DNA of 64,000 bases from Rhodocyclaceae bacterium (GTDB taxonomy: Bacteria; Pseudomonadota; Gammaproteobacteria; Burkholderiales; Rhodocyclaceae). The position numbers and the translations under genes are program-made. The stretch spans positions 1-64,000 of the forward strand of contig JAUXXJ010000005.1 of the NCBI GenBank assembly GCA_030681195.1. Direction: 5' to 3'. Below are positions 7,470 to 22,870 of this stretch, piece by piece. The stretch's first letter is position 1. Each line of letters starts with the position of its first letter. The notes beneath the pieces are model-generated. The model saw only the letters and a program-made list of their open reading frames with translations. It did not search any database and was not told the DNA's origin.

Positions 7470-9078
<1,609 letters not shown>

Positions 9079-9103: not shown

Positions 9104-9463
9104 ATGCCCAACGTTACTTTCACCAGCCCCTTGCACAAGGACAAGACCGTCTACGCTGTCGCCGGCAGTCACAAGCAGACCATTCTCGAACTCGCCAAGG
9201 AAAATCATGTGCCGATCGACTTTTCCTGTGGCGATGGCGAGTGTGGTACCTGCCTTGTCAGGATCATCCATGTCGATAAGACCAAGAAGTTTGGTCATCC
9301 GCTGACCGAGCGCGAAGTCGCCGTGTTGAAGGATCTCGGCAAGATCACCAAGGCCCAGATCGAGGAAATGGGCGTGACCGATATTTGTCCGACCGAATGG
9401 CGGCTGGCCTGCCAGATGGTGCTGGACAACGAAGACATTGTTGTCGAATACCCATCGAAGTGA
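9104..9463 (+). CDS. FeSII/Shethna-type 2Fe-2S protein, putative nitrogenase conformational protection factor
   Basis: The 119-residue ferredoxin has cysteines in SCGDGECGTCLVRI and a distal LACQ, with a long helical insert between the third and fourth cysteine (LTEREVAVLKDLGK). Length, the N-terminal VTFTSPL, the insert and the ending LACQMVLDNEDIVVEY all resemble my recollection of Azotobacter vinelandii FeSII (Shethna protein II), which locks nitrogenase into an inactive O2-tolerant complex when oxidised. AGGAG lies eight bases before ATG 9104. The next gene, draG, starts inside its last codons. A general plant-type ferredoxin is the alternative. Confidence 0.82.
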   Translation: MPNVTFTSPLHKDKTVYAVAGSHKQTILELAKENHVPIDFSCGDGECGTCLVRIIHVDKTKKFGHPLTEREVAVLKDLGKITKAQIEEMGVTDICPTEWRLACQMVLDNEDIVVEYPSK

Positions 9464-10346
9464 CCTGATCGCAAGGGCCGAGGCGAGTTACCTCGGCCTT
9501 GCCATCGGCGATGCGCTGGGTGCGACCGTAGAGTTCATGATGCCGCGCGAGATTCGTGCGGCGTTCATGCCCAAGCGTGGTGTGCATCGCGAGTTGATCG
9601 GCGGGGGCTGGCTGCGCCTCAAGCCCGGTCAGGTCACCGACGACACCACCATGGCGCTGGCGCTGGGTGCGGCAATTCTCGCGGATGCCGGCGAGGTCAA
9701 GCCGCTCTCCTGCGCTCAAGCCTTTGACGGCTGGATGCGCAGCAAACCGGTCGATATCGGCAATACGGTGCGCCGCAACCTCATCACATTTCGCAACACC
9801 GGCGATCCCTGTGCGCCACGGTCGGAGCACGATGCCGGCAATGGTGCTGCCATGCGCGTGCTGCCCGTGGCGTTGGCGACCTTGGGGCGGGAGGAATCCG
9901 TGGTGCGTGCCGCGATTCATGCCCAGGCGCATGTGACGCATCATAATCCGGCCTCAGATGCGGTGTGCGAGTTGCTCGTCTTCATGGTGCAGGATGCCCT
10001 GCGTGGGGCCAGTCTGCGTGAGCTTTATCGTGGCCGTATCCAGCCTTTCGTCAGCGCACATCCCGAATTTTCGTTTCGGCCCAAGCGGCGTGAAAATCCC
10101 AGCGGCTGGGTGGTCGAGACCCTGCAGGCGGTGCTGCAAGCCCTGCTCGATACCGGGAGTTTTGAGGATTGCCTGATCGATGTTGTCAATCGTGGTGGCG
10201 ATGCCGATACGACAGGTGCTATTGCCGGCATGGTGGCCGGGGCGCTGTATGGCTATGAGTCCTTGCCGCTGCGCTGGTTGCGTGCATTGGATGCCCAGAC
10301 GGCGAAGCGGGTTTCACATCAGGCACAGGCGTTGGTGGTTTTGTAA
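9438..10346 (+). CDS. draG: ADP-ribosyl-[dinitrogenase reductase] glycohydrolase DraG
   Basis: DraG removes ADP-ribose from the modified arginine of NifH and so reactivates nitrogenase. Family motifs are present: GLAIGDALGATVEF near the start, QVTDDTTMALALG and GGDADTTGAIAG, which hold the Mn2+-binding acidic residues. The length of about 300 residues is typical. No ATG is available near the expected N-terminus: the start must be a TTG (9438 or 9441) or CTG 9465, all next to the upstream stop at 9461-9463, so translation is likely coupled to the ferredoxin. Its partner draT lies 8 kb away beside nifH rather than adjacent. Confidence 0.92.
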   Translation: MLSNTHRSDLIARAEASYLGLAIGDALGATVEFMMPREIRAAFMPKRGVHRELIGGGWLRLKPGQVTDDTTMALALGAAILADAGEVKPLSCAQAFDGWMRSKPVDIGNTVRRNLITFRNTGDPCAPRSEHDAGNGAAMRVLPVALATLGREESVVRAAIHAQAHVTHHNPASDAVCELLVFMVQDALRGASLRELYRGRIQPFVSAHPEFSFRPKRRENPSGWVVETLQAVLQALLDTGSFEDCLIDVVNRGGDADTTGAIAGMVAGALYGYESLPLRWLRALDAQTAKRVSHQAQALVVL

Positions 10347-10424
10347 CCCTTGCGGTGGTTGACTGCGGCATAATCACGCGCTGGCGCGATGGTTAGCGCC
10401 CTATGGTGGTCAGGGAGAGATAAA

Positions 10425-13400
10425 TTGCAGACGAATAAGCCAGCGAAGCCGGTGGCGATAAAAGCATCAGCGAAAGCGCCAGCGGCGAAATTGTCTGCAC
10501 CCAAGCGTGCCACAACGAAAAAGGCATCAGCCGCGCCTGAAAAGACTCCCGATAACAAGCCAGTTGGCGAGGGACCGCTCTACTACGTTGGCATCGGTGC
10601 ATCGGCCGGGGGGCTGGAAGCCTTGCGTCCTTTCGTCGCCAATTTACCGGCGCATGCCAACATGACCTATATCGTGGCGCAGCACATGTCGCCCGATCAC
10701 CGCAGTCTGATGGTCGAACTGCTGGCCCGCGAAACCCAGCTCACGGTGCTGGAGGCCAGCCACAATGTGCCGCCGCAGGCCGATACCATTTACGTGGCGC
10801 CGCCCAATTCCGATGTCACCGTGGCCAATGGCCGCCTGCGCATCAGCAAGCCGACCAATACCATCGGCCCCAAGCCTTCCGTCGATCGCTTCTTCATGAG
10901 TCTGGCCGAAGATCAGGAGGATCGGGCCATTGGCATCATCCTGTCCGGCACGGGCTCGGATGGCTCGCACGGCATCAAGGCGATCAAGGCGGCTGGCGGC
11001 ATTTGCATTGCCCAGGAACCGAAGTCGGCCAAGTACAACAGCATGCCCAACGCGGCCATCCGCGCGGGCGGCACTGACCTGGTGTTGCCACCCCCAGAGA
11101 TCGCCATCCAGTTGCTGTCGATTGTGCAGTGGCCGCGTGCGCCGATCGCCGATGATATAGAAGAGAATCCGCCGTCGACCATCCGCGGCATCGTGCGCCA
11201 GATCGCCACTCATACGGGCATGGATTTCTCGAACTACAAGGATGCCACGATCTCGCGGCAGATCATGCGGCGCATGGCGGCGATGCAGATTCCAGGGCTG
11301 GATGCCTATGGCGACTACATCAGCACGCATGTATCAGAGCTGACCGAACTGGCCGGCAACTTCCTGATCTGCGTGACCTCGTTCTTCCGCGATCCAGAAT
11401 CTTTTGAGGCCGTGCGGCGCGTCATCAGCGAGATTCTCAAGACCAAGCGGCCGGGTGATGACATTCGTATCTGGATTCCCGGCTGTGCGACCGGCGAGGA
11501 GGTGTACACCGTCGCCATCATCCTCGCCGAGGAACTGGGGTCGAATCGCGACAAGTACCGCATTCAGTTGTTTGCGACAGACATCAATGGCGATGCCGTC
11601 AGCATGGCTCGTGCCGGTGTTTATCCCGAAGCCGCGCTGAATGGTGTCGACAGCGCGCTGATCGAGCGCTACTTTACGTCCCAGGATGGCATGTACCTGA
11701 TCGACAAGAGCCTGCGCGAGATGACCTTGTTTGCACGCCAGGATCTGGTGCAGGACCCGCCCTTCGTGCGCCTCGACATGGTCAGTTGCCGCAATCTGCT
11801 GATCTATTTCAAGTCCGAGCTGCAGGAACGGGTGATCAAGCTCTTCCACTATGCCTTGCACAACAACGCCATCCTGTTCCTGGGTAAATCCGAGTCCTTG
11901 GGCAAGTTGAGCAACCTGTTCGTGGAAAAAGACCGGCGCAACAAGATTTTTATCAAGCGTCCGGTTGCCTCGCCCATCATCGGTGGTTTTGCGCGCATGC
12001 GCGGGCTGGGCGGCAGTGACAACCTCGGCTATGTGTCCAGCAAGACGGTGATTCCCCCCACCAACAACGAGGTGGGGCACGAGCGCCTGTTCGAAATTTA
12101 TGCGCCGCCCAGCCTGTTGATGACCGATGAGGGCGAGGTGCTGGAAATCTTCGGCGACTGCAGTGCCTTTCTTTCGATCCGCAAGGGTAAGGCCGATTTC
12201 AATGCCTTTACCCTGATCAAGCCGCCACTGCGGGCCGAGTTGCGGGCCTTTGCCCATCGCGTCGGCCGTACCAAGCAAAGCGCGATCTCCAGCCCGATTG
12301 AACTGGCGGCGGATGGCATTTCGCATTACTACCGCATGGCCGTTCACTACGGCGGTCAGGCGGAGTCGGAAAATCCCAATTTGTTGCTGGTGTGTTTCGA
12401 ACTGGCCGATGTTAAACATCCTTCCCCCGGGGATGCGGCGGGTGCAGGGATTGCGACCAGCGAGCGTATTTCCGAGCTGGAACAGGAAATCACCCTGAAC
12501 CGCGAAAATCTGCAGACAGTGATCGAGGAACTAGAAACAGCCAACGAAGAACTGCAGTCCCTCAACGAAGAGGCGCAGGCCTCCAACGAGGAATTGCAGG
12601 CCTCCAATGAGGAACTGGAAACCGCAAACGAGGAACTGCAGGCATCCAACGAGGAACTGATTACCGTCAACGACGAACTCGGCTCACGCACATTGGAACT
12701 GAGCGAATCGAACGGTGATTTGACGAACATCCTCAACAGCCTGCAGAAGGGGCTGCTGGTGGTGGATGGCAACCTGATGGTGACGCGTTACAACCGGATC
12801 GCGCTGGACTTCTTCGATATCCCTGCCGGCACCAAGCCCAACCTGACCTCCGTGCCGATGCTGGCACACGTGCCGGACTTGCTGAACCATGTGGCCCATG
12901 TCATCAAGAAAGGCAAGGTCGATGAGTTTGAGTTCAAGCGCGAGGACAATTGCTACTTCATGATCCGCATGACGCCCTATGTGGATGACAACCGCAAGGG
13001 TATCGGCGGCGTGGTGATGACGATCACCGAAATCACCGAAAAGAAAGTCGCCGAAGAAAAGCTCCGCCTTTCCGCCTCCGTGTTCGAGTATGCCTCCGAG
13101 GCGACCGTGATTACCGATGCCCATAACCAGATCATCTCGGTGAATCCGGCATTTACGACCATTACCGGCTATACGCCGGATGAAGTGATCGGCAAGAAGC
13201 CGCACATCCTCAATTCCGGCAAGCATCCCAAAGAGTTCTTCAAGCACATGTGGGAGGTGTTGCTGTCCACCGGTGTCTGGCAGGGTGAGATCGAGAACCG
13301 CCGCAAGAACGGCGATACCTATACGGAATGGCTGTCGATCAATGTTCTCAAGGATGAGGCGGGTAACGTCATTCGCCATATTGCGGTATTTAGCGACATT

Positions 13401-14735
13401 ACCGACGCCAAGAAGGCCCAGGAAACCATCGAGCGCCAGGCGACTTTCGATACGCTGACCGGGCTGCCCAACCGCAACCTGACGATGGATCGTCTCAAGC
13501 AGATGCTGTCGTTGAGTCGCCGCAATGGGCGCATGTTCGCCGTGATGTTTCTCGACCTGGATCATTTCAAATCGATCAACGATGCGCTGGGCCACGCCGC
13601 TGGCGACGAACTGCTGGTGAAGACGGCCGTGCGTATCCGCGGCGCACTACGCGATGCCGACTCGGTCGGCCGCATGGGCGGCGATGAGTTCATTGTGTTG
13701 TTGAGCGATCTCAGCAGTACGGAGGACATCATTCCGATCGCCAACAAGCTGATGGCCGAGGTGCGCGAACCGCTGGTGGTGGCCGGACACACCTTGCAAA
13801 CAGCGACCAGTATCGGCATCACGGTCTATCCGATGGACGGCGATACGCCCGAGATCATGCTCAAGAATGCCGATAGCGCCATGTACGAGGCGAAGAAGAA
13901 TGGTCGCAATACCTTCTGCTTCTTTACCCACCGCATGCAGGATGAGGCCAACAAGCGCCACTGGATCGACAGTGAGCTGAGTACCGCCCTGCAACGTGAG
14001 CGCATGCACGTCTACTACCAGCCGATCATGCGCCTCCCCACCATGCAACTGGCAGGTGCCGAGGCCCTGTTGCGTTGGCAGCATCCGAGCAAAGGGTTCA
14101 TTCCGCCCGATGTGTTTATCCCGGTCGCCGAACAGAATGGCATGATTGGCCGGCTTAGTCACTGGGTGTTTGAAACCGGTATTGCGGACTGGGAGCACTG
14201 GACTCAGGAGTCTGGCATGCGCCTGTCACTGGCATTCAATCTTTCTGCCGCCCAGTTCGTCGCGCGCGATCACATCGAGCAAATGCTGCGCCTGCTCAGC
14301 AAGACCAACCTGGCGCGCGATCATCAGGTAACGATCGAGATTACCGAGAGCCTGAAGCTTTCCGACAACGAGGCCTATGTCGACATCCTGCGTCAGTTGC
14401 GCCAATGCGGCTGCCGTATCGCCATCGACGACTTTGGCACGGGCTACTCATCGCTCAGTTATCTCAAGCGCATGCCGATCGACATCATCAAGATCGACCG
14501 TTCGTTTGTGCGCGACATCACCACCGATCCAACCGATGCGGCGATGATCCGGGCCATCCTGCAGATGGCCAGTGCCTTCGGCATGGAGACGGTGGCGGAG
14601 GGGGTGGAAACGCCGGAACAACTCGCGTTCCTGCAGGAACACGGTTGCAACTATGCGCAAGGCTTCCTGTTCAGCAAGGCGGTCCCTTATCCCGAGTTCG
14701 TTCGCTACGCCCAGGGGATCAAGGGCGCCAGCTAG
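10425..14735 (+). CDS. CheB-CheR-PAS-PAS-GGDEF-EAL fusion signalling protein
   Basis: A very large cytoplasmic signalling protein. From the N-terminus: a Lys/Ala-rich tail; a CheB methylesterase domain with GIGASAGG, QHMSPDH and SGTGSDGSHG holding the Ser-His-Asp triad; a CheR methyltransferase domain (WIPGCATGEEVY, MVSCRNLLIYF); a coiled coil of repeated NEEL(Q/E)ASNEE units (12470-12700); two PAS domains (12720-13420); a GGDEF domain with intact GGDEF (near 13678); and an EAL domain with EALLRW (near 14060) and DDFGTGYSS. The frame opens at ATG 10389, but AGGGAGAG 7-14 bases before TTG 10425 favours the later start. Both c-di-GMP synthesis and breakdown motifs are intact. No transmembrane segment is seen. 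Confidence 0.92.
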   Translation: MQTNKPAKPVAIKASAKAPAAKLSAPKRATTKKASAAPEKTPDNKPVGEGPLYYVGIGASAGGLEALRPFVANLPAHANMTYIVAQHMSPDHRSLMVELLARETQLTVLEASHNVPPQADTIYVAPPNSDVTVANGRLRISKPTNTIGPKPSVDRFFMSLAEDQEDRAIGIILSGTGSDGSHGIKAIKAAGGICIAQEPKSAKYNSMPNAAIRAGGTDLVLPPPEIAIQLLSIVQWPRAPIADDIEENPPSTIRGIVRQIATHTGMDFSNYKDATISRQIMRRMAAMQIPGLDAYGDYISTHVSELTELAGNFLICVTSFFRDPESFEAVRRVISEILKTKRPGDDIRIWIPGCATGEEVYTVAIILAEELGSNRDKYRIQLFATDINGDAVSMARAGVYPEAALNGVDSALIERYFTSQDGMYLIDKSLREMTLFARQDLVQDPPFVRLDMVSCRNLLIYFKSELQERVIKLFHYALHNNAILFLGKSESLGKLSNLFVEKDRRNKIFIKRPVASPIIGGFARMRGLGGSDNLGYVSSKTVIPPTNNEVGHERLFEIYAPPSLLMTDEGEVLEIFGDCSAFLSIRKGKADFNAFTLIKPPLRAELRAFAHRVGRTKQSAISSPIELAADGISHYYRMAVHYGGQAESENPNLLLVCFELADVKHPSPGDAAGAGIATSERISELEQEITLNRENLQTVIEELETANEELQSLNEEAQASNEELQASNEELETANEELQASNEELITVNDELGSRTLELSESNGDLTNILNSLQKGLLVVDGNLMVTRYNRIALDFFDIPAGTKPNLTSVPMLAHVPDLLNHVAHVIKKGKVDEFEFKREDNCYFMIRMTPYVDDNRKGIGGVVMTITEITEKKVAEEKLRLSASVFEYASEATVITDAHNQIISVNPAFTTITGYTPDEVIGKKPHILNSGKHPKEFFKHMWEVLLSTGVWQGEIENRRKNGDTYTEWLSINVLKDEAGNVIRHIAVFSDITDAKKAQETIERQATFDTLTGLPNRNLTMDRLKQMLSLSRRNGRMFAVMFLDLDHFKSINDALGHAAGDELLVKTAVRIRGALRDADSVGRMGGDEFIVLLSDLSSTEDIIPIANKLMAEVREPLVVAGHTLQTATSIGITVYPMDGDTPEIMLKNADSAMYEAKKNGRNTFCFFTHRMQDEANKRHWIDSELSTALQRERMHVYYQPIMRLPTMQLAGAEALLRWQHPSKGFIPPDVFIPVAEQNGMIGRLSHWVFETGIADWEHWTQESGMRLSLAFNLSAAQFVARDHIEQMLRLLSKTNLARDHQVTIEITESLKLSDNEAYVDILRQLRQCGCRIAIDDFGTGYSSLSYLKRMPIDIIKIDRSFVRDITTDPTDAAMIRAILQMASAFGMETVAEGVETPEQLAFLQEHGCNYAQGFLFSKAVPYPEFVRYAQGIKGAS

Positions 14736-15136
14736 GCCGCTACGTCCTGCTGGCCTTGTCGCTTGATGCAGCCTGCCAGCGCCGCATCCATGGTCGCCAG
14801 ATGGTTGCGGAACCACTCGGGCAGCCCCTGGCTGACATACAGTCGCGCGAAACGTAGCCGGCCTTCCTGAACCGCATTCAGCATATGCACCAGTTCGCCG
14901 AGGACGCGCCGGTGCTCGCCCTCATGTTCGGCAATGGCTGGGAAGCCACAATGGCGCATCAGGCTGCTTTCGTTCTCAAAGTGCTGGCGGGTATGTTCGG
15001 CGAGGGCACTCAGCAGATAGGGGAAGTCTTCGTCGCTGGCGCGGATCGTCTCGCTGGTCAGTCGCGTGAACGCCTCGTGTGTGGCATCCATCTCAACTAC
15101 GCCAAGCGCGTACAGGGCAGGGTTCCAGTTCAACAT
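14732..15136 (-). CDS. Bacteriohemerythrin
   Basis: A 134-residue single-domain hemerythrin with the diiron ligands in order: MDATHEAF (His20), HTRQHFENE, HEGEHRRVL and WFRNHLATMD. Such proteins bind O2 reversibly and can store, sense or deliver it. The gene overlaps the end of the SIR2-like gene by 7 bases, so it is in the same operon and, by that promoter, probably NifA-dependent. A role in buffering O2 near nitrogenase is inference from the regulation. Confidence 0.92.
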   Translation of the reverse strand: MLNWNPALYALGVVEMDATHEAFTRLTSETIRASDEDFPYLLSALAEHTRQHFENESSLMRHCGFPAIAEHEGEHRRVLGELVHMLNAVQEGRLRFARLYVSQGLPEWFRNHLATMDAALAGCIKRQGQQDVAA

Positions 15137-15981
15137 GTCACCAACTCGGTACGGCCCAGCAGCCAGGGGATATCTGCTTCAATGATCTCGACGCCCATCT
15201 TGCCGAGGAAACGCCGCTCCTTGTCGGTCGGCTGTTCGATCAGCGCCCAGCCGGACGGTTTGGCTGCGCCGTAGATCAGGTCGGACATCACCATGCGCTC
15301 GCTGTCGCGGTTGAAGCGCAGACCGATGAACAGATACTGCTTGTCCTTGCGCATTTCCTTGACGAAGGAGGGTACGGCAAAGCCGCCCATCAGTTCGGTG
15401 ATGTAATCGACGTAGTCGGCATCCGAGGCGATATAGGACGACTCGGGCCGGGGAGCGCCCATCGGCTTGAACAAGACCGGCAGGTCGATCGCTGCTTGCT
15501 CGGGCAGGATGGCGGTATAGCTGGTGCCGTCGTGGGCGAACAGCTTGAAACGGTAGTCCGTGCCGCCCAGCCGCGCGCAGCCCAACACCAGCAGGTGGGG
15601 CACGCTGGAAAAGGAATCAAGCAATTGCGTATCGCGGTTGATATCGATTACGTAGCGCGGTTGCAGTGCCTTGATCCAGTCGTGCACCGTGCTGCGCGTC
15701 CACTGGCTGGCGCCATAAGTGGCATCGAGAAACTTCGTCACCGCTGCGCGGCCACGTTTTAGTTCGATGTTCATCGCGGCGCGCGAGAATTCATACATCA
15801 GCTTGGGCGACATCGGTTTGCCGCCGTTCATGGCGATGATCAGTTCATCGCTGGTCGCCGGCATCGCTGCGCCGGTGTCGGGGTTGCGCACATCGGCCAG
15901 GACGCCTGGGCCGAGGTAAGGCACGATGCTGCCATTTTTTAGCCCACTGAGTAGTTGGGCGTGCTTTTCTTGGGTTGGCAT
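15130..15981 (-). CDS. SIR2-like domain protein, nif-regulated
   Basis: The 283-residue protein starts with a Rossmann-type segment (SIVPYLGPGVL) like the N-terminus of SIR2-like domains and ends with YLFIGLRFNRDSERMVM, the second half of that fold; the catalytic His of classical sirtuins is not evident. SIR2-like proteins bind and often cleave NAD+. Start ATG 15981 is chosen over ATG 15993 because GGAGAG lies four bases upstream. A sigma54 promoter and a NifA site precede it, and hemerythrin follows with overlap. NAD+ is also the substrate of DraT, encoded just upstream. The function is unknown. Confidence 0.75.
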   Translation of the reverse strand: MPTQEKHAQLLSGLKNGSIVPYLGPGVLADVRNPDTGAAMPATSDELIIAMNGGKPMSPKLMYEFSRAAMNIELKRGRAAVTKFLDATYGASQWTRSTVHDWIKALQPRYVIDINRDTQLLDSFSSVPHLLVLGCARLGGTDYRFKLFAHDGTSYTAILPEQAAIDLPVLFKPMGAPRPESSYIASDADYVDYITELMGGFAVPSFVKEMRKDKQYLFIGLRFNRDSERMVMSDLIYGAAKPSGWALIEQPTDKERRFLGKMGVEIIEADIPWLLGRTELVTC

Positions 15982-16010
15982 GAGACTCTCCATAACAGGT
16001 TGGGGAGTTC

Positions 16011-16027
16011 ATGCAATTCTCGCGCCC
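16011..16027 (-). promoter_or_regulatory. Sigma54 (-24/-12) promoter of SIR2-like/hemerythrin operon
   Basis: Minus strand GGGCGCG-N4-TTGCA, with GG and GC 10 bases apart and two mismatches to the consensus. Transcription would start near 16001, 20 bases before the ATG. Confidence 0.75.
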
Positions 16028-16067
16028 GGCCGGAAACCCGCATCAGGTCGAGGTTGCTTAATGTCAA

Positions 16068-16083
16068 TGTCGGCTTTGCAACA
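16068..16083. promoter_or_regulatory. NifA upstream activator sequence for SIR2-like operon
   Basis: TGT-N10-ACA. On the minus strand it reads TGTTGCAAAGCCGACA, 14 of 16 bases identical to the UAS of nifE. It lies 41 bases from the -24 GG, the same spacing class as nifB, nifE and nifN. Confidence 0.8.
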
Positions 16084-16117: not shown

Positions 16118-16371
16118 TATGACTGAACGGGTGTCCGCCCCGAAGCGCGAACGCCTGCGATGGTCACCAGTGTGGCCATCAGGCGCGTGCCGGTAATTTC
16201 CGGGAAGCGTTGTTCGATGGCCTCCATGGCCATGATTTCGTGGGCCATCGAGAGCCAGTTGCCGCTTTCATCAAGGGAGGGCGCGACGAGTTCGAAGGCT
16301 TCGACAAATACCGTGCGCAACTGGCAGTCGGTACGCTGTTCGTTGTCGAGGCCAATGGATTCAACTGTCAT
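16117..16371 (-). CDS. Small protein of unknown function, last gene of draT-sigma operon
   Basis: An 84-residue acidic protein whose ATG overlaps the stop of the sigma-factor gene (ATGA), so it is almost certainly co-translated. It has no transmembrane segment or recognisable motif; the middle (MAHEIMAMEAIEQRFPE) is predicted helical. Small partners of sigma factors, such as anti-sigma factors, are sometimes encoded this way, but nothing in the sequence shows that. Its stop codon abuts a copy of the short interspersed repeat. Confidence 0.7.
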   Translation of the reverse strand: MTVESIGLDNEQRTDCQLRTVFVEAFELVAPSLDESGNWLSMAHEIMAMEAIEQRFPEITGTRLMATLVTIAGVRASGRTPVQS

Positions 16372-17153
16372 GCGGTTCTCCAGCGTGGTTTGAGCAGTGA
16401 TGCGTGGGTGTCGTCGCCGAGGACGGCGGCGCGTAGTTTGGCAATCGCCTGTGCGTGAATCTGGCTGACCCGTCCCTCGGTGACGCCCAGGAGGGAGCCG
16501 ATTTCACGCATGGTGCGGTCATCGCTGTAATAGGCCTGCATGACGGTTTCTTCGCGTTCCGTCAGTTCGCTGAGGGCAAGTAGCAGGGTGCGTTGCACGA
16601 TCTTGCGTTCCAGTGCGGCGACCGGGTTGGCGTTGGTGCTGGCGCACCACGAGATGAAGTCGCGCTCCTGCTGAACTTCGTCGAAGTCATCCAGCGAAAA
16701 CAGGGTGTAGCCATCCGCCCGCTGCAGCAAGGACTGGTAGGTATCCAGTGCCATGCCCAGTGCCTCGGCAACTTCGCCTTCCTGCGGCATGCGGCCAAGA
16801 CGATGACAGAGTTGCGTGATGGTGACTTCGACGCGACGCATTTCCTGACGTACCTTGCGGCTACCCGGATCGTTCTCGCGCAGGCCATCGAGCATGGCGC
16901 CACGGATGCGCTGCGACAGGTAGGCGTTGTAGCTTTTCCCCGCTTGTGAGGCGGTGGACTGGATGATGGTCACCAGCAGACCGACCATGCCATCCTGAAT
17001 CAGATCATCCGCTTCGACATTCGCCGGTAGACGGCGCAGCAGCGAGTGTGCGATGGCGTTGACCAACGGGGTGTGCTCTGCAATCAGACGCTCGCACTCC
17101 GCGTCGCTGAGCCGCTTGCGCCTGGGCGTCGTCGTGTCTGAGGCCTTTGTCAT
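16368..17153 (-). CDS. Sigma-70 family (FliA/sigma28-like) RNA polymerase sigma factor
   Basis: A 261-residue alternative sigma factor with region 2 (LVNAIAHSLLRRLP, ADDLIQDGMVGLL, IRGAMLDGLRENDP), region 3 (HRLGRMPQEGEVAEALGM) and a region 4 helix-turn-helix (MREIGSLLGVTEGRVSQIHAQAIAKLR). The GAMLDGLR and SRK segments are the FliA type, which normally directs flagellar and chemotaxis genes. No flagellar genes are in the window. It lies third in a minus-strand run starting with draT. The target promoters cannot be inferred here; it may be a divergent FliA paralogue. Confidence 0.85.
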   Translation of the reverse strand: MTKASDTTTPRRKRLSDAECERLIAEHTPLVNAIAHSLLRRLPANVEADDLIQDGMVGLLVTIIQSTASQAGKSYNAYLSQRIRGAMLDGLRENDPGSRKVRQEMRRVEVTITQLCHRLGRMPQEGEVAEALGMALDTYQSLLQRADGYTLFSLDDFDEVQQERDFISWCASTNANPVAALERKIVQRTLLLALSELTEREETVMQAYYSDDRTMREIGSLLGVTEGRVSQIHAQAIAKLRAAVLGDDTHASLLKPRWRTA

Positions 17154-17180: not shown

Positions 17181-17771
17181 TTACTCGGTGGTGGCGCGTA
17201 TCCAGTGGCCCATGATTTGCGAGCGGCCGAGCTGGCTTTCCGGGTATTCGAGGCGCAGCAGCAGTCTCTGCCCGTTGGCCCAGTCGGCAGCAACTTCGTT
17301 ATACAGTCGGCTGCCGTGTGGTGCCGGTGCCACCGGCACGTGAGCAATAGCGAGGTCGGTGACCTTCTTGCTATAGGGTGTTTCCAAAACGGCACGGTTT
17401 TCCCGGTAGATTGAGGCGGCCAGCGAGACCGCTTTCCATTGCGTTGGTTGCTGTTCCTTTGCAGTGGCGTGGGCCTCCGACCACAAGTGCCAGCCAATGG
17501 CTAGGTTGGTGCAGCGATGGAGAGCAAGTTCGGCTGGGATGCCACGGGCCTTTAACTGGCGGGCCGGAATTTGCGTGAGGCCGACATAAAGCTCGTCCGC
17601 ATTTGCATTGGCATTTTTTAGATCCTGCAGTTTGCGCGTCTGGCCTTGTGCATCGGTAATCAGGTCAGGGTTCCCGCCTGAGCCTGCCATGACCATGGCA
17701 AACGCGATGGCGCTGTCGGCGCCGGGCATGCAGAAGGCGATCCAGGTGGCGAGGGCGATGGGGCTGAGCAT
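17181..17771 (-). CDS. VirB1-like (lytic-transglycosylase fold) exported protein, catalytic Glu apparently lost
   Basis: A hydrophobic N-terminus (MLSPIALATWIAFCMP) may be a signal peptide. The body resembles VirB1/P19-type soluble lytic transglycosylases: SGGNPDLITDAQG, then DELYVGLTQIPARQLKARGI (family: DVGLMQIN...LGI) and HRCTNLAIGWHLW (family: NLxAGAxIL). In active enzymes a Glu precedes SGGNP; here the residue is Gly (MAGSGGNP), so hydrolysis is doubtful. It lies 9 bases after draT and 27 bases before the sigma-factor gene. Assignment to the fold is by eye. Confidence 0.55.
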   Translation of the reverse strand: MLSPIALATWIAFCMPGADSAIAFAMVMAGSGGNPDLITDAQGQTRKLQDLKNANANADELYVGLTQIPARQLKARGIPAELALHRCTNLAIGWHLWSEAHATAKEQQPTQWKAVSLAASIYRENRAVLETPYSKKVTDLAIAHVPVAPAPHGSRLYNEVAADWANGQRLLLRLEYPESQLGRSQIMGHWIRATTE

Positions 17772-17780
17772 GCGGCGACC

Positions 17781-18647
17781 TTACAAGGTATGGACTGTCA
17801 CAGCGTAGGCGCCGCCAATCACCAGATGCTCATCCTCGCCTTTCAGCACCCCCGGCAGCAGGGCGCAGTGGAAGAAGATCTTGGCGACCGGCACATCGAC
17901 GGCGAGGATGACATCGCCAAACTCGCCGGCCCGTTCGCGCGAGGTGCTGAAGGAGGTGATGTTGTTGAGCAGTACCACCTGACGTTTGTCTTGACCTGAG
18001 AGCACCTCGTGTTCGTCGAGGCGGTTGATGCCACGGTAGAGCGTGAGGTGTCCGCCCTGGCGGCCGGCGCGGTCGAATTCGTATTGCCCATAGGCATACA
18101 GCAGGTCGAGTTGCGCCTCGAGGGCGTTGGTGCCATAGAGGCCGGTGGCGCGCATTTCTTCATAGCGCTGCCAGGCGCGGCTGGTGAAGTCGCGTAACGG
18201 TTCGCCGTGGTGGCGCGGCACGAGACCGAAGCGCGATTCGACCCAGCCCTTGAGCACGGCGCCTTCGCGGCTGTCGGCATCGAAACTCCAGCCACGCAGG
18301 ATGCGCAGCCAGTTGGCTTTGGCTCTTTTGGTGGTGGCGGCATCCAGACCGGCGTCTTCGAGATGGTCGAGGCAGAAATGGGCATTGAGGCCATCACAGA
18401 AAAGTTTGGCACGCTCTTGTGCTGCCGCAATCGGGTCAAGCAGGCGGAACAGCTCGGCATGCAGCTCCTCAACACCATCCAGTTTGAGCGGGGCAGGGTG
18501 CTGCTGGAAGGTGAGGCTGCCGAGGATGACGGCGGGCAGGTTGCAGCGGTTGATGGGTAGTCGTGCCCACGACGGAAGTGTGGGACTTTGGAGTGGATTG
18601 TCGCAAGTGCTACAAGAACTCACTGAGGGAAGGGGGATGCTGGTCAC
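17781..18647 (-). CDS. draT: NAD+--dinitrogenase-reductase ADP-D-ribosyltransferase DraT
   Basis: DraT inactivates NifH by transferring ADP-ribose from NAD+ to one arginine (Arg102 here). Family features are NRCNLPAVILGSL near the N-terminus, LCDG/CLDHL-type helices, LRGWSFDADSREGAVLKGWV, and the ADP-ribosyltransferase core LTLYRGINRLDEHEVL with NNITSFSTSRERAGEFGD, which holds the Arg-Ser/Thr-Ser motif set. It is divergent from nifH, with 139 bases between. The start is GTG 18647 or GTG 18623; neither has a clear ribosome site, and the NifA site for nifH falls inside its first codons. draG is 8 kb away. Confidence 0.93.
   Translation of the reverse strand: MTSIPLPSVSSCSTCDNPLQSPTLPSWARLPINRCNLPAVILGSLTFQQHPAPLKLDGVEELHAELFRLLDPIAAAQERAKLFCDGLNAHFCLDHLEDAGLDAATTKRAKANWLRILRGWSFDADSREGAVLKGWVESRFGLVPRHHGEPLRDFTSRAWQRYEEMRATGLYGTNALEAQLDLLYAYGQYEFDRAGRQGGHLTLYRGINRLDEHEVLSGQDKRQVVLLNNITSFSTSRERAGEFGDVILAVDVPVAKIFFHCALLPGVLKGEDEHLVIGGAYAVTVHTL
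18599..18614 (+). promoter_or_regulatory. NifA upstream activator sequence for nifH
   Basis: TGT-N10-ACA (within TTGT...ACAA), 80 bases before the -24 element. It lies inside the 5' coding part of draT, on the overlapping divergent strand. Confidence 0.8.
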
Positions 18648-18750: not shown

Positions 18751-19683
<933 letters not shown>

Positions 19684-19748: not shown

Positions 19749-21221
19749 ATGGCTGCATTGACCCGTGAAGAAACCCAGGCCCTCATTGCTGAGGTGCTTG
19801 AGGTTTATCCCGAGAAAGCAAAGAAAGACCGTGCCAAGCACCTGATGGTGAACGACAAGGCGTTGGAGTCGTCGAAGAAGTGCATCACCTCCAACCGCAA
19901 GTCGCTGCCCGGTGTGATGACCATGCGCGGCTGTGCCTACGCCGGTTCCAAGGGCGTGGTCTGGGGTCCGATCAAGGACATGATCTCGATCTCGCACGGT
20001 CCGATTGGCTGCGGCCAGTATGCACGTGGCGGCCGCCGCAACTACTACGTTGGCACCACCGGCGTGGATACCTTCTGCGAGATGAACTTCACCTCCGATT
20101 TCCAGGAGAAGGACATTGTTTTCGGCGGCGACAAGAAGCTGGCCAAGCTGATGGAAGAGATCGAAATGCTCTTCCCGATGAACAAGGGTATTTCGGTGCA
20201 GTCCGAGTGTCCGGTCGGTCTGATCGGCGACGACATCGAAGCCGTGTCGAAAAAGATGGCCGCACAAATCAACAAGCCGGTTGTGCCGGTGCGTTGCGAA
20301 GGCTTCCGTGGCGTTTCCCAGTCGCTCGGCCACCACATCGCCAACGACTCGGTGCGCGACTGGATTCTCTCCAACCGCGACGGTCAGGCTTTCGAGAAGA
20401 CCCCGTACGACGTGGCCATCCTTGGCGACTACAACATCGGCGGCGATGCCTGGGCCTCGCGCATCCTGCTCGAGGAGATGGGTTTGCGCGTGGTGGCCCA
20501 GTGGTCCGGCGACGGCACCCTGGCCGAAATGGAGAACACCCCGAACGTCAAGCTCAACCTGCTGCACTGCTACCGTTCGATGAACTACATCTCCCGCCAC
20601 ATGGAAGAGAAGTACGGTATCCCATGGCTTGAGTACAACTTCTTCGGCCCGACCAAGATCGCCGAATCGCTGCGCGCCATCGCGTCGCACTTCGACGACC
20701 GCATCAAGGAAGGCGCTGAGCGCGTGATCGAGAGATATACGCCGGAAATGAACGCCGTGATCGCCAAGTTCAAGCCGCGTCTGCAGGGCAAGAAGGTCAT
20801 GCTCTACGTCGGCGGCCTGCGTCCGCGTCACGTCGTCGGTGCCTATGAAGACCTGGGCATGGAAGTGGTCGGCACCGGCTACGAATTCGCGCACAACGAT
20901 GACTACGATCGCACCATGAAGGATATGGGCGATGCCACGCTGATCTACGACGACGTTACCGGTCACGAGCTCGACGAGTTCGTCAAGGTGATGAAGCCCG
21001 ATCTGATCGGTTCCGGCATCAAGGAAAAGTACGTCTTCCACAAGATGGGCGTGCCCTTCCGTCAGTTGCACAGCTGGGACTACTCCGGCCCCTACCATGG
21101 CTACGACGGCTTCGCCATCTTCGCCAAGGACATGGACCTGACCCTGAACAATCCGGTCTGGAAGATGCTCAAGGCACCGTGGCTGAAGGACGAGGCCACT
21201 GCCGAGAAGAAGGTTGCCTAA
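19749..21221 (+). CDS. nifD: Nitrogenase molybdenum-iron protein alpha chain
   Basis: NifD holds FeMo-co and shares the P-cluster with NifK. The 490-residue protein shows the P-cluster cysteines in [23 protein letters not shown] and [12 protein letters not shown], the FeMo-co Cys in [11 protein letters not shown] and the FeMo-co His in [20 protein letters not shown] precedes ATG 19749. Length and all ligands are normal for a Mo-dependent enzyme. Confidence 0.99.
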
Positions 21222-21301: not shown

Positions 21302-22870
21302 ATGCAAGCAATTGATGATATCAAGCCGTGTTTTCCCCTGTTCCGGGACGACGACTACAAGGGCATGATCGCGCGTAAGCGCGAGAAGTTTGAAGAAACC
21401 TCCTCCAAGGAAAAAGTCGCCGAAGTTTTCAACTGGACGACCACTAAGGAGTATCAGGACCTTAACTTCAAGCGCGAGGCCCTGACCATCAACCCGGCCA
21501 AGCAGTGCCAGCCGCTCGGTTCCGCCCTGTGCGGCCTGGGCTTCCACAAGGCACTGGTGTACATCCACGGTTCGCAAGGTTGCGTGGCCTATTTCCGCAC
21601 CTACTTCAACCGTCACTTCAAAGAGCCGATTGCCTTCATCGCCGACTCGATGACGGAAGATGCCGCCGTGTTCGGCGGTCAGAAGAACGTTCATGAAGGT
21701 CTCGCCAACGCCAAGGCGCTCTACGGCGCCGAGATGATCGTGATGTCGACCACCTGTATCGCCGAGGTGATCGGCGACGACCTGAACGCCTTCATCGGCA
21801 ACGCCCGCAAGGAAGGCCACATTCCCGAGGACTTCCCGGTGCCTTTCGCGCACACCCCGTCCTTCGTTGGCTCGCACGTCACCGGCTGGGACAACATGGA
21901 AGAGGGCATCCTGCGCTACTACACCCTCAATGCCATGGAAGGCAAGGAGGTCGGCAAGAATGGCAAGATCAACATCGTGCCGGGCTTCGAGACCTACCTG
22001 GGCAACTACCGCGTGATCAAGCGCATGCTGAAGGAAATGGACGTCGATTACACGATGCTCTGTGATCCCGAAGAAGTGCTCGACACCCCGGCCGATGGCG
22101 AGTTCCGCATGTATGCCGGCGGCACCACCCAGGACGAGATCAAGGATGCGCCGAACGCCAAGAACACCTTCCTGATCCAGCCGATGGGTTGCGACAAGAC
22201 CCGCAAGTTCGTCGAGACCACCTGGAATCACGAAGTGCCCAAGCTCAACATCCCGATGGGCGTGGAATGGACCGACGAGTTCCTGATGAAGGTTTCGGAA
22301 GTCACTGGCAAGCCGATCGCGCCCTCGCTGCAACTGGAGCGTGGCCGTCTGGTCGATATGATGACCGACTCGCACGCCTGGCTGCATGGCAAGAAGATGG
22401 CCGTCTATGGCGACCCCGACTTCACCATGGGCATGGTCAAGCTGATGATGGAATTCGGCATCGAGCCCACCCACGTCGTCTGCAACAACGGCAGCAAAAA
22501 GTGGGCGAAAGCCATGGAAAAACTGCTGGCCTCCAGCCCCTACGGCGCCAACGGCAAGGCCTACCCGGGCGCTGACCTGTGGCACCTGCGCAGCCTGTGC
22601 TTCACCGACAAGCCGGATTTCCTCATCGGCAACAGCTACGGCAAGTACATCCAGCGCGACACGCTGCACAAGGGTGAGGAGTTCGAGGTGCCGCTGATCC
22701 GTATCGGCTTCCCGATCTTCGACCGTCACCATCTGCATCGTCAGACCACGCTCGGCTACGAAGGCGCCATGCAGGTGCTGACGACGCTGACCAATGCGGT
22801 GTTGGAGCGTCTGGACGATCAGACCCGTGGCATGGGAACTACCGACTACAACCACGACCTGGTTCGGTAA
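21302..22870 (+). CDS. nifK: Nitrogenase molybdenum-iron protein beta chain
   Basis: The 522-residue beta subunit carries its P-cluster cysteines in KQCQPLGSALC, IHGSQGCVAYFR and STTCIAEVIGDD. The C-terminal DQTRGMGTTDYNHDLVR is typical. The gene follows nifD after 80 bases, with a GAAGGAG ribosome site. Confidence 0.99.
   Translation: MQAIDDIKPCFPLFRDDDYKGMIARKREKFEETSSKEKVAEVFNWTTTKEYQDLNFKREALTINPAKQCQPLGSALCGLGFHKALVYIHGSQGCVAYFRTYFNRHFKEPIAFIADSMTEDAAVFGGQKNVHEGLANAKALYGAEMIVMSTTCIAEVIGDDLNAFIGNARKEGHIPEDFPVPFAHTPSFVGSHVTGWDNMEEGILRYYTLNAMEGKEVGKNGKINIVPGFETYLGNYRVIKRMLKEMDVDYTMLCDPEEVLDTPADGEFRMYAGGTTQDEIKDAPNAKNTFLIQPMGCDKTRKFVETTWNHEVPKLNIPMGVEWTDEFLMKVSEVTGKPIAPSLQLERGRLVDMMTDSHAWLHGKKMAVYGDPDFTMGMVKLMMEFGIEPTHVVCNNGSKKWAKAMEKLLASSPYGANGKAYPGADLWHLRSLCFTDKPDFLIGNSYGKYIQRDTLHKGEEFEVPLIRIGFPIFDRHHLHRQTTLGYEGAMQVLTTLTNAVLERLDDQTRGMGTTDYNHDLVR

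Follow-up and report, generated by a model that had tools for sequence, protein, structure and literature searches.

What does a SIR2-like protein do beside nitrogenase? The question is raised by a stretch of 64,000 nucleotides of a Rhodocyclaceae bacterium (positions 1 to 64,000 of contig JAUXXJ010000005.1, assembly GCA_030681195.1; hereafter the window), in which a gene for a SIR2-like protein and a downstream hemerythrin gene lie near nifHDK. An initial annotation had proposed that the two form an operon; both genes are confirmed by Pfam and overlap by 7 bases. We favour, with moderate confidence, the reading of this pair as a nif accessory operon of two genes (pnfA plus hemerythrin), in which a non-enzymatic SIR2-fold protein would keep nitrogenase active during respiration. 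The main gene is already known as a little-studied nif gene, reported once as PnfA, and its novelty had been overestimated, as it has been named, shown to depend on NifA and knocked out in Pseudomonas stutzeri (PMC2820453). The present analysis adds that the SIR2 fold is of the defence type and degenerate, that the family is measurably tied to nifD, that two subfamilies belong together and that a hemerythrin recurs as a partner; in the parts of the open-licence PubMed Central literature covered, no description was found of a SIR2-hemerythrin nif operon or of catalytic-residue loss in this family.

The expression of pnfA (PST1325) of P. stutzeri A1501 was judged NifA- and sigma54-dependent by quantitative reverse transcription PCR (PMC2820453, 2010). 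In a non-polar pnfA mutant, nifH transcription was unchanged, nitrogenase activity was 23% at 0.5% O2 and similar to wild type in anaerobiosis, and N2 fixation was abolished when nitrate served as acceptor. On semisolid medium free of nitrogen the mutant continued to grow, and it was complemented, with data not shown in that paper (PMC2820453). Its defects share an active respiratory chain, with O2 or with nitrate, and not O2 alone; a role in protecting or feeding nitrogenase in respiring cells is therefore the most likely one, ahead of assembly, sensing or enzyme action, with a mechanism that we infer. The O2 link put forward in the initial annotation is supported by this phenotype, as a link to O2 or respiration. 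The unchanged nifH transcription would also suit a nitrogenase assembly or maturation factor of the sort proposed for NifZ, NifT or NifW, in which a SIR2-fold scaffold would serve Fe-S cluster or cofactor delivery and the effects of O2 and nitrate would reflect damaged intermediates. We regard such a function as doubtful, given that the mutant resembled wild type in anaerobiosis and PnfA is thus not needed for assembly as such.

The SIR2-like gene of the window corresponds to pnfA, a tie made via gene order, the SIR2 label and named homologues rather than by direct alignment with PST1325. PST_1325 carries the label of a SIR2 family protein in PMC11332353, and PMC2820453 gives homologues of PnfA in Azoarcus BH72, Dechloromonas aromatica RCB and A. 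vinelandii; a locus labelled Dechloromonas aromatica (L016) carries a gene 67% identical to that of the window, near nifH and draT. In the parts covered, PMC2820453 likens part of PnfA to UspA or to an electron-transfer flavoprotein, without a SIR2 label. The genes of both organisms read away from the nif structural genes, are preceded by TGT-N10-ACA plus -24/-12 sites and are linked to diazotrophs, whereas the window differs by having draT and three open reading frames (ORFs) before nifH and a hemerythrin gene after pnfA.

Upstream of the SIR2-like gene lie a predicted NifA upstream activator site (UAS) and a predicted sigma54 promoter (Table 1). As the initial annotation had stated, the UAS shares 14 of 16 letters with that upstream of nifE (48912; TGTTGCAAATGCGACA), and a -24/-12 promoter is followed by a leader of 20 bases, which fits a start at 15981. 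This start appears likelier than the first in-frame ATG at 15993 (an ORF of 287 residues; Pfam SIR2_2 33.4 bits, cut-off 24.5), because GGAGAG lies just upstream of it, the N-termini of relatives begin at about this point and the leader from the -12 element measures about 20 bases. Taken within the window alone, neither site is significant: the UAS pattern occurs 12 times against 7.95 expected, with at least 12 occurrences in 17 of 100 shuffles and hence no excess over chance, and 13 -24/-12 sites score at least 10 on the two strands. The UAS as a significant signal by itself was rejected on these counts.

The control is judged real because the pair of sites is conserved across the family. Of 80 family genes, that of the window among them, 69 are preceded by a UAS followed by a -24/-12 site, compared with 0.44 on average and at most 3 of 80 in upstream regions shuffled by dinucleotide (100 rounds); an enlarged PnfA-type set from which the window was excluded gave 79 of 95. 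The upstream sequences are related, and these counts do not represent independent cases. One locus with a short upstream stretch (L024) was left out of the 80-gene count, reducing it from 81, and the 95-gene count took all. Two loci duplicate the window: L082, which was not used, and L001, which is counted among the 81 rows, the 80 genes, the 96 PnfA-type proteins (of 125 in total) and the 28 hemerythrins discussed below, and excluded from the 95; the protein of L083 is identical to that of L008. The pair is also kept at 17 of 19 loci without a nif, dra, ferredoxin or ODP-flavodoxin gene (40% identity, stretches of at least 12 kb), and the sites therefore follow the gene and not the neighbourhood. 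On the evidence of these conserved sites, the SIR2-like/hemerythrin operon is probably switched on together with nitrogenase by NifA and sigma54; a nifA gene is present in the window's genome, above the curated cut-off. The induction with nitrogenase put forward at first is thus supported as co-regulation predicted from conserved sites. Such co-regulation is in line with the NifA and RpoN dependence of P. stutzeri pnfA (PMC2820453) and with the NifA dependence of Rcc03262 of Rhodobacter capsulatus (PMC6925177).

The family is closely tied to nitrogen fixers. In a sample of 300 genomes of the order (family profile A1 at E 1e-10, nifD at E 1e-50), the family is found in 48, nifD in 47 and both in 46, such that 46/48 carriers harbor nifD and 46/47 nifD genomes harbor the family (Fisher p about 1e-50, which is optimistic as the genomes are related); the nifD genome with no family match is G132. 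According to the initial annotation, wide occurrence of the gene pair without nif and without the promoter would speak against its proposal, and these counts point the other way. A sample of 299 genomes of the phylum (family at E 1e-6, nifD at E 1e-150) gave 16 carriers, 39 nifD genomes and 14 with both, using a profile built from PnfA-type proteins only, with which far relatives could be missed. Among 18 genomes reached via loci without nifHDK on the stretch, 16 carry nifD. Relatives were also found in 75 of 72,556 plasmid records, 69 of them from Rhizobium, Mesorhizobium or Sinorhizobium, and the four plasmid regions inspected all contain nif genes. Nearly all carriers seen are diazotrophs. 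A family universal in diazotrophs was ruled out, as the profile had no match in 25 of the 39 genomes with nifD in the phylum sample and Sinorhizobium plasmids have NifD in 76 records and a relative in 7.

The carriers of the order sample fall into two score classes, 13/48 at 440 bits or more and 35/48 at about 60 to 100 bits, and the family consists of two subfamilies, the PnfA type and one located near nifB-nifZ-nifT. Their profiles (A1 and A2) match each other with a probability of 99.9 (E 4.2e-35, 23% identity), and the two share the nif cluster setting and incomplete catalytic residues. In contrast to the PnfA type, the second subfamily has Trp-Tyr-Asp in place of Asn-Arg-Asp and no promoter pair of its own (0/29 loci), the pair lying instead upstream of nifB at 23 of 25. 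A nif gene is visible at 28 of the 29 fetched loci, and at all 26 that show nifB the SIR2-like gene is on the same strand, downstream at 24 and upstream at L113 and L117. On plasmid p42d of Rhizobium etli the order is nifA-nifB-4Fe4S-nifZ-nifT-SIR2 (RHE_RS30545); one plasmid each of Rhizobium, Paraburkholderia and Methylococcus shows a comparable order, with additional genes interposed in Paraburkholderia and Methylococcus. By gene order, its sequence not having been compared, Rcc03262 of R. capsulatus resembles this subfamily: it lies in the order nifB1-rcc03265-nifZT-rcc03262, and the protein was not found in the nifA mutant (PMC6925177). The position near nifB, nifZ and nifT agrees with the assembly function considered above, against which NifB is encoded on the opposite strand at 18 of the 19 PnfA-subfamily loci showing both genes (L053 being the exception).

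Two further features of these loci were observed. Among the plasmid records listed, many symbiotic ones of Rhizobium phaseoli and R. etli match the second-subfamily protein at two places. At Thiothrix-type loci (L061, positions 8840-9061, L052, L066 and L068) a cysteine-containing protein of 73 to 75 residues is encoded directly after the SIR2-like gene, and its L061 copy has no Pfam match.

Both subfamilies show the whole-domain fold of the SIR2 NAD+-cleaving enzymes (NADases; NAD+, nicotinamide adenine dinucleotide) of the Thoeris (ThsA), Kongming (KomC) and DSR2 systems, with Z scores of about 15 to 20. The AlphaFold2 model of the window family (predicted local distance difference test, pLDDT, 84.8; predicted template modelling score 0.87) superposes on KomC (chain E of the KomBC complex) with Z 18.6 and a root mean square deviation of 3.2 over 241 residues, on BcThsA with Z 16.6 and on DSR2 with Z about 16. 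The model of the second subfamily (pLDDT 90.2) matches SeThsA with Z 20.1 and a deviation of 3.3 over 250 residues, and this subfamily reaches SeThsA by sequence as well (E 1.7e-8). Searched against PDB sequences, the window-family profile gave only two chance-like matches, and the second subfamily was needed as a bridge. The search with the latter aligns its Tyr-Lys-Pro-Leu-Gly with Tyr-Lys-Met-His-Gly of BcThsA (a 21-bit stretch) and its Trp-Tyr-Asp with Asn-Tyr-Asp of ThsA, and the comparison of subfamily profiles places Phe-Lys-Pro-Met-Gly and Asn-Arg-Asp of the window protein on the same catalytic columns.

The catalytic set is incomplete in every member. The 96 PnfA-type proteins keep Asn and Asp, but Tyr is replaced by Arg in all of them and His by Met in 85, Leu in 10 and Thr in 1; the window protein has Asn-Arg-Asp and Met for the catalytic His. 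In the 29 second-subfamily proteins, Trp (28) or Gly (1) stands in place of Asn, and five have His at the His position. A complete Asn-Tyr-Asp is found in none of the 125 members, and Asn and His together in none either, for which reason catalysis of a known kind is not expected. As compared with Thoeris, Kongming and DSR2, the PnfA family thus lacks Asn-Tyr-Asp plus His, and it also lacks a second domain and is under NifA-type control.

NADase, deacetylase or DraT-partner roles therefore appear unlikely from the sequences. That the protein is an active NAD+-using enzyme (a NADase, a deacetylase or an ADP-ribosyl-transferring sirtuin), acting with DraT/DraG or on nitrogenase lysine acetylation, would agree with the SIR2 fold, with the dra genes nearby in the window, with the His kept in a few second-subfamily members and with the acetylation of nitrogenase proteins and NifA in Zymomonas (PMC8600466). 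We nevertheless consider it very improbable, since in DSR2, changes of the equivalent Y134, D135 or H171 lower NADase activity (PMC11263360), and these Tyr and His positions are substituted in all 96 PnfA-type proteins. Sirtuin deacylases possess a catalytic His and a zinc site of four cysteines, and with its two cysteines the window protein does not have enough for such a site. The NAD+ consumption envisaged by the initial annotation is not supported, given the replacement of the catalytic His, and neither is a special link to DraT: in a search limited to stretches with nifH, no DraT was present on 11 of 44 and on 10 of 16. ZMO1821 of Zymomonas has been suggested as a likely deacetylase (PMC8600466); if ZMO1821, whose sequence was not compared, belongs to the family, residue loss would contradict this suggestion and such activity would not be expected.

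The same structural likeness bears on the idea that a phage-defence protein lies in the nif cluster by accident. The nearest solved structures by fold are mostly SIR2 proteins of defence systems, and the second-subfamily protein has weak PADLOC matches (PglZ 0.0022, ThsA 0.012), whereas the window protein matches no PADLOC family at E 1. With the incomplete catalytic residues, the conserved NifA-type control and the tie to nifD standing against it as well, we give this explanation hardly any credence. No defence partner was noticed beside the family genes, no dedicated search for TIR or another partner having been made.

Another reading is a nucleotide sensor, whose SIR2 pocket would still bind NAD+, NADH, ADP-ribose or a related ligand, so that nitrogenase, its electron donors or the hemerythrin would be informed of the energy or redox state. 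All 125 proteins keep the Rossmann glycine G24, and all 96 of the PnfA type keep N115 and D117. Moreover, 25 of 70 invariant window-family residues fall into four ten-residue blocks with a mean model confidence below 70 (9.9 expected, p 4e-8; the count excludes the final three-residue block); such blocks could be loops that become ordered on binding a partner or ligand, or could reflect only a shallow alignment. The least confident parts of the model, residues 51-80 and 191-200, contain the invariant AMNGGKPM...RAAM and TELMGGF. A sensor is unlikely in our view, as N112A and H152A each abolish both NAD+ cleavage and NAD+ binding in ThsA, the latter with an altered oligomer (PMC7272460), so that residue loss may mean loss of binding, and as Asn is replaced by Trp in nearly all of the second subfamily.

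The hemerythrin is a recurrent partner of the PnfA-type gene, not a fixed one. Its gene is found within 2 kb downstream at 22 of 82 PnfA-type loci, across alpha-, beta- and gammaproteobacteria, and a fixed partnership was ruled out on this count. A quick tree with 87 PnfA-type rows labelled for hemerythrin (present in 27, absent in 60; 32 of 88 inner branches open) requires 12 changes of this label, 6 of them forced by starred branches. The window copy resembles known bacteriohemerythrins by its single HHE domain, its match above the TIGR02481 cut-off and its seven iron ligands (H20, H52, E56, H71, H75, H112 and D117), and differs from them by falling below the NF033749 cut-off (59.4 against 84 bits) and by its place in a NifA-type operon. 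All seven ligands, five His, one Glu and one Asp, are conserved in 28/28 SIR2-linked hemerythrins, window included, which is in keeping with the proposed O2 or respiration link. In the genome of the window, the six other matches reach an identity of 30% or less. In the Azonexus/Dechloromonas group, a protein of 185 residues without a Pfam match is often encoded between the SIR2-like and hemerythrin genes.

In the mechanism that we propose, NifA and sigma54-RNA polymerase would turn on the operon along with nitrogenase, as suggested by the conserved sites and reported for pnfA. The SIR2-like protein, which according to model and alignment has the full fold of anti-phage SIR2 NADases and no catalytic set, would most likely be a non-enzymatic binding protein; judging from the published mutant, it would act post-transcriptionally and keep nitrogenase active while the cell respires O2 or nitrate. 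Where present, the hemerythrin would bind O2 or nitric oxide (NO) in the vicinity of this process; NO can arise from nitrate respiration and may be a ligand of hemerythrins. As to its origin, we suggest tentatively that a SIR2 NADase domain of the Thoeris/Kongming type was recruited long ago to the nif regulon and lost catalysis differently in two lineages (one losing His and Tyr, the other Asn), and would now be a non-enzymatic guard or feeder dedicated to nitrogenase in respiring cells, sometimes with a dedicated O2/NO-binding hemerythrin.

Several observations weigh against a non-enzymatic, respiration-linked nif function. The mutant phenotype comes from P. stutzeri and not from the organism of the window, and ZMO1821, a SIR2 protein encoded in the nif cluster of Zymomonas, is induced in an organism that lives by fermentation (PMC8600466), which would fit a role in respiration poorly. 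The five second-subfamily members that keep His (L113, L115, L117, L119 and L120) all lack Asn, and no hemerythrin lies within 2 kb at 60 of the 82 PnfA-type loci. Besides the nifD genomes of the phylum sample without a match, NifD is present in 239 plasmid records against 75 with a relative. Finally, six carriers have no nifD match: G135 and G201 in the order sample, G366 and G538 in the phylum sample, and G581 and G594 among the genomes reached via loci without nifHDK. At the end of the same contig, G201 carries nifH and a truncated nifD; only draG is found on the contig of G135; G366 and G538 each have a NifD-like match of 33% identity, the level that NifE would produce, and in G538 nifB lies close to the gene. 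All of these except G201 may be incomplete assemblies.

Table 1. Coordinates of the SIR2-like/hemerythrin operon, its predicted control sites and nearby nitrogen fixation genes in the window
Feature	Position	Strand	Remarks
Predicted NifA upstream activator site, TGT-N10-ACA	16068..16083	minus	TGTTGCAAAGCCGACA
Predicted -24/-12 (sigma54) promoter	16012..16027	minus	GGGCGCGAGAATTGCA; GG-N10-GC intact, 10/12 consensus letters
SIR2-like (PnfA-type) gene	15130..15981	minus	283 aa; Pfam SIR2_2, AlphaFold2 model
Hemerythrin gene	14732..15136	minus	134 aa, single domain; Pfam Hemerythrin 34 bits, cut-off 25.3
draT	17781..18647	minus	1.8 kb upstream of SIR2-like gene, three ORFs in between
draG	9438..10346	plus	neighbour on opposite side from draT
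nifH	18787..19683	plus	divergent from draT
nifD	19749-21221	plus	downstream of nifH; separately found in nifD search
nifK	21302-22870	plus	downstream of nifD

The SIR2-like gene is on the same strand as draT and opposite to nifHDK, with no direct contact with nifH. Upstream of it follow a small ORF, a FliA-like sigma factor, another ORF, draT and nifHDK. The genes at 16368-17153 and 17181-17771, between draT and the SIR2-like gene, code for this FliA/WhiG-type sigma factor and a protein with a weak VirB1-like match, an arrangement also seen at locus L002. On the other side, a CheB-CheR-PAS-GGDEF-EAL protein of 1448 residues (10389-14735) lies tail-to-tail with the hemerythrin gene, overlapping it by 4 bases. 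Further away, a protein with ODP beta-lactamase and flavodoxin domains, of flavodiiron type, is encoded at 7470-8777, and a 2Fe-2S ferredoxin (9104-9463) precedes draG. Flavodiiron-type proteins are an O2- or NO-reducing family, and the ODP beta-lactamase/flavodoxin gene shares a stretch with PnfA-type genes in many relatives.

A gene family present in nearly all nifD genomes of the order sample is labelled in records as a SIR2 family protein, and one nif-cluster member has been called a likely deacetylase, with a strong, respiration-linked knock-out phenotype in print since 2010. A non-catalytic SIR2 fold under NifA-type control opens the way to direct tests of how free-living diazotrophs keep nitrogenase working while respiring, and makes PnfA a candidate part for the transfer of nitrogenase into other hosts. 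A fold best known from anti-phage NADases would thereby be shown to serve a metabolic complex.

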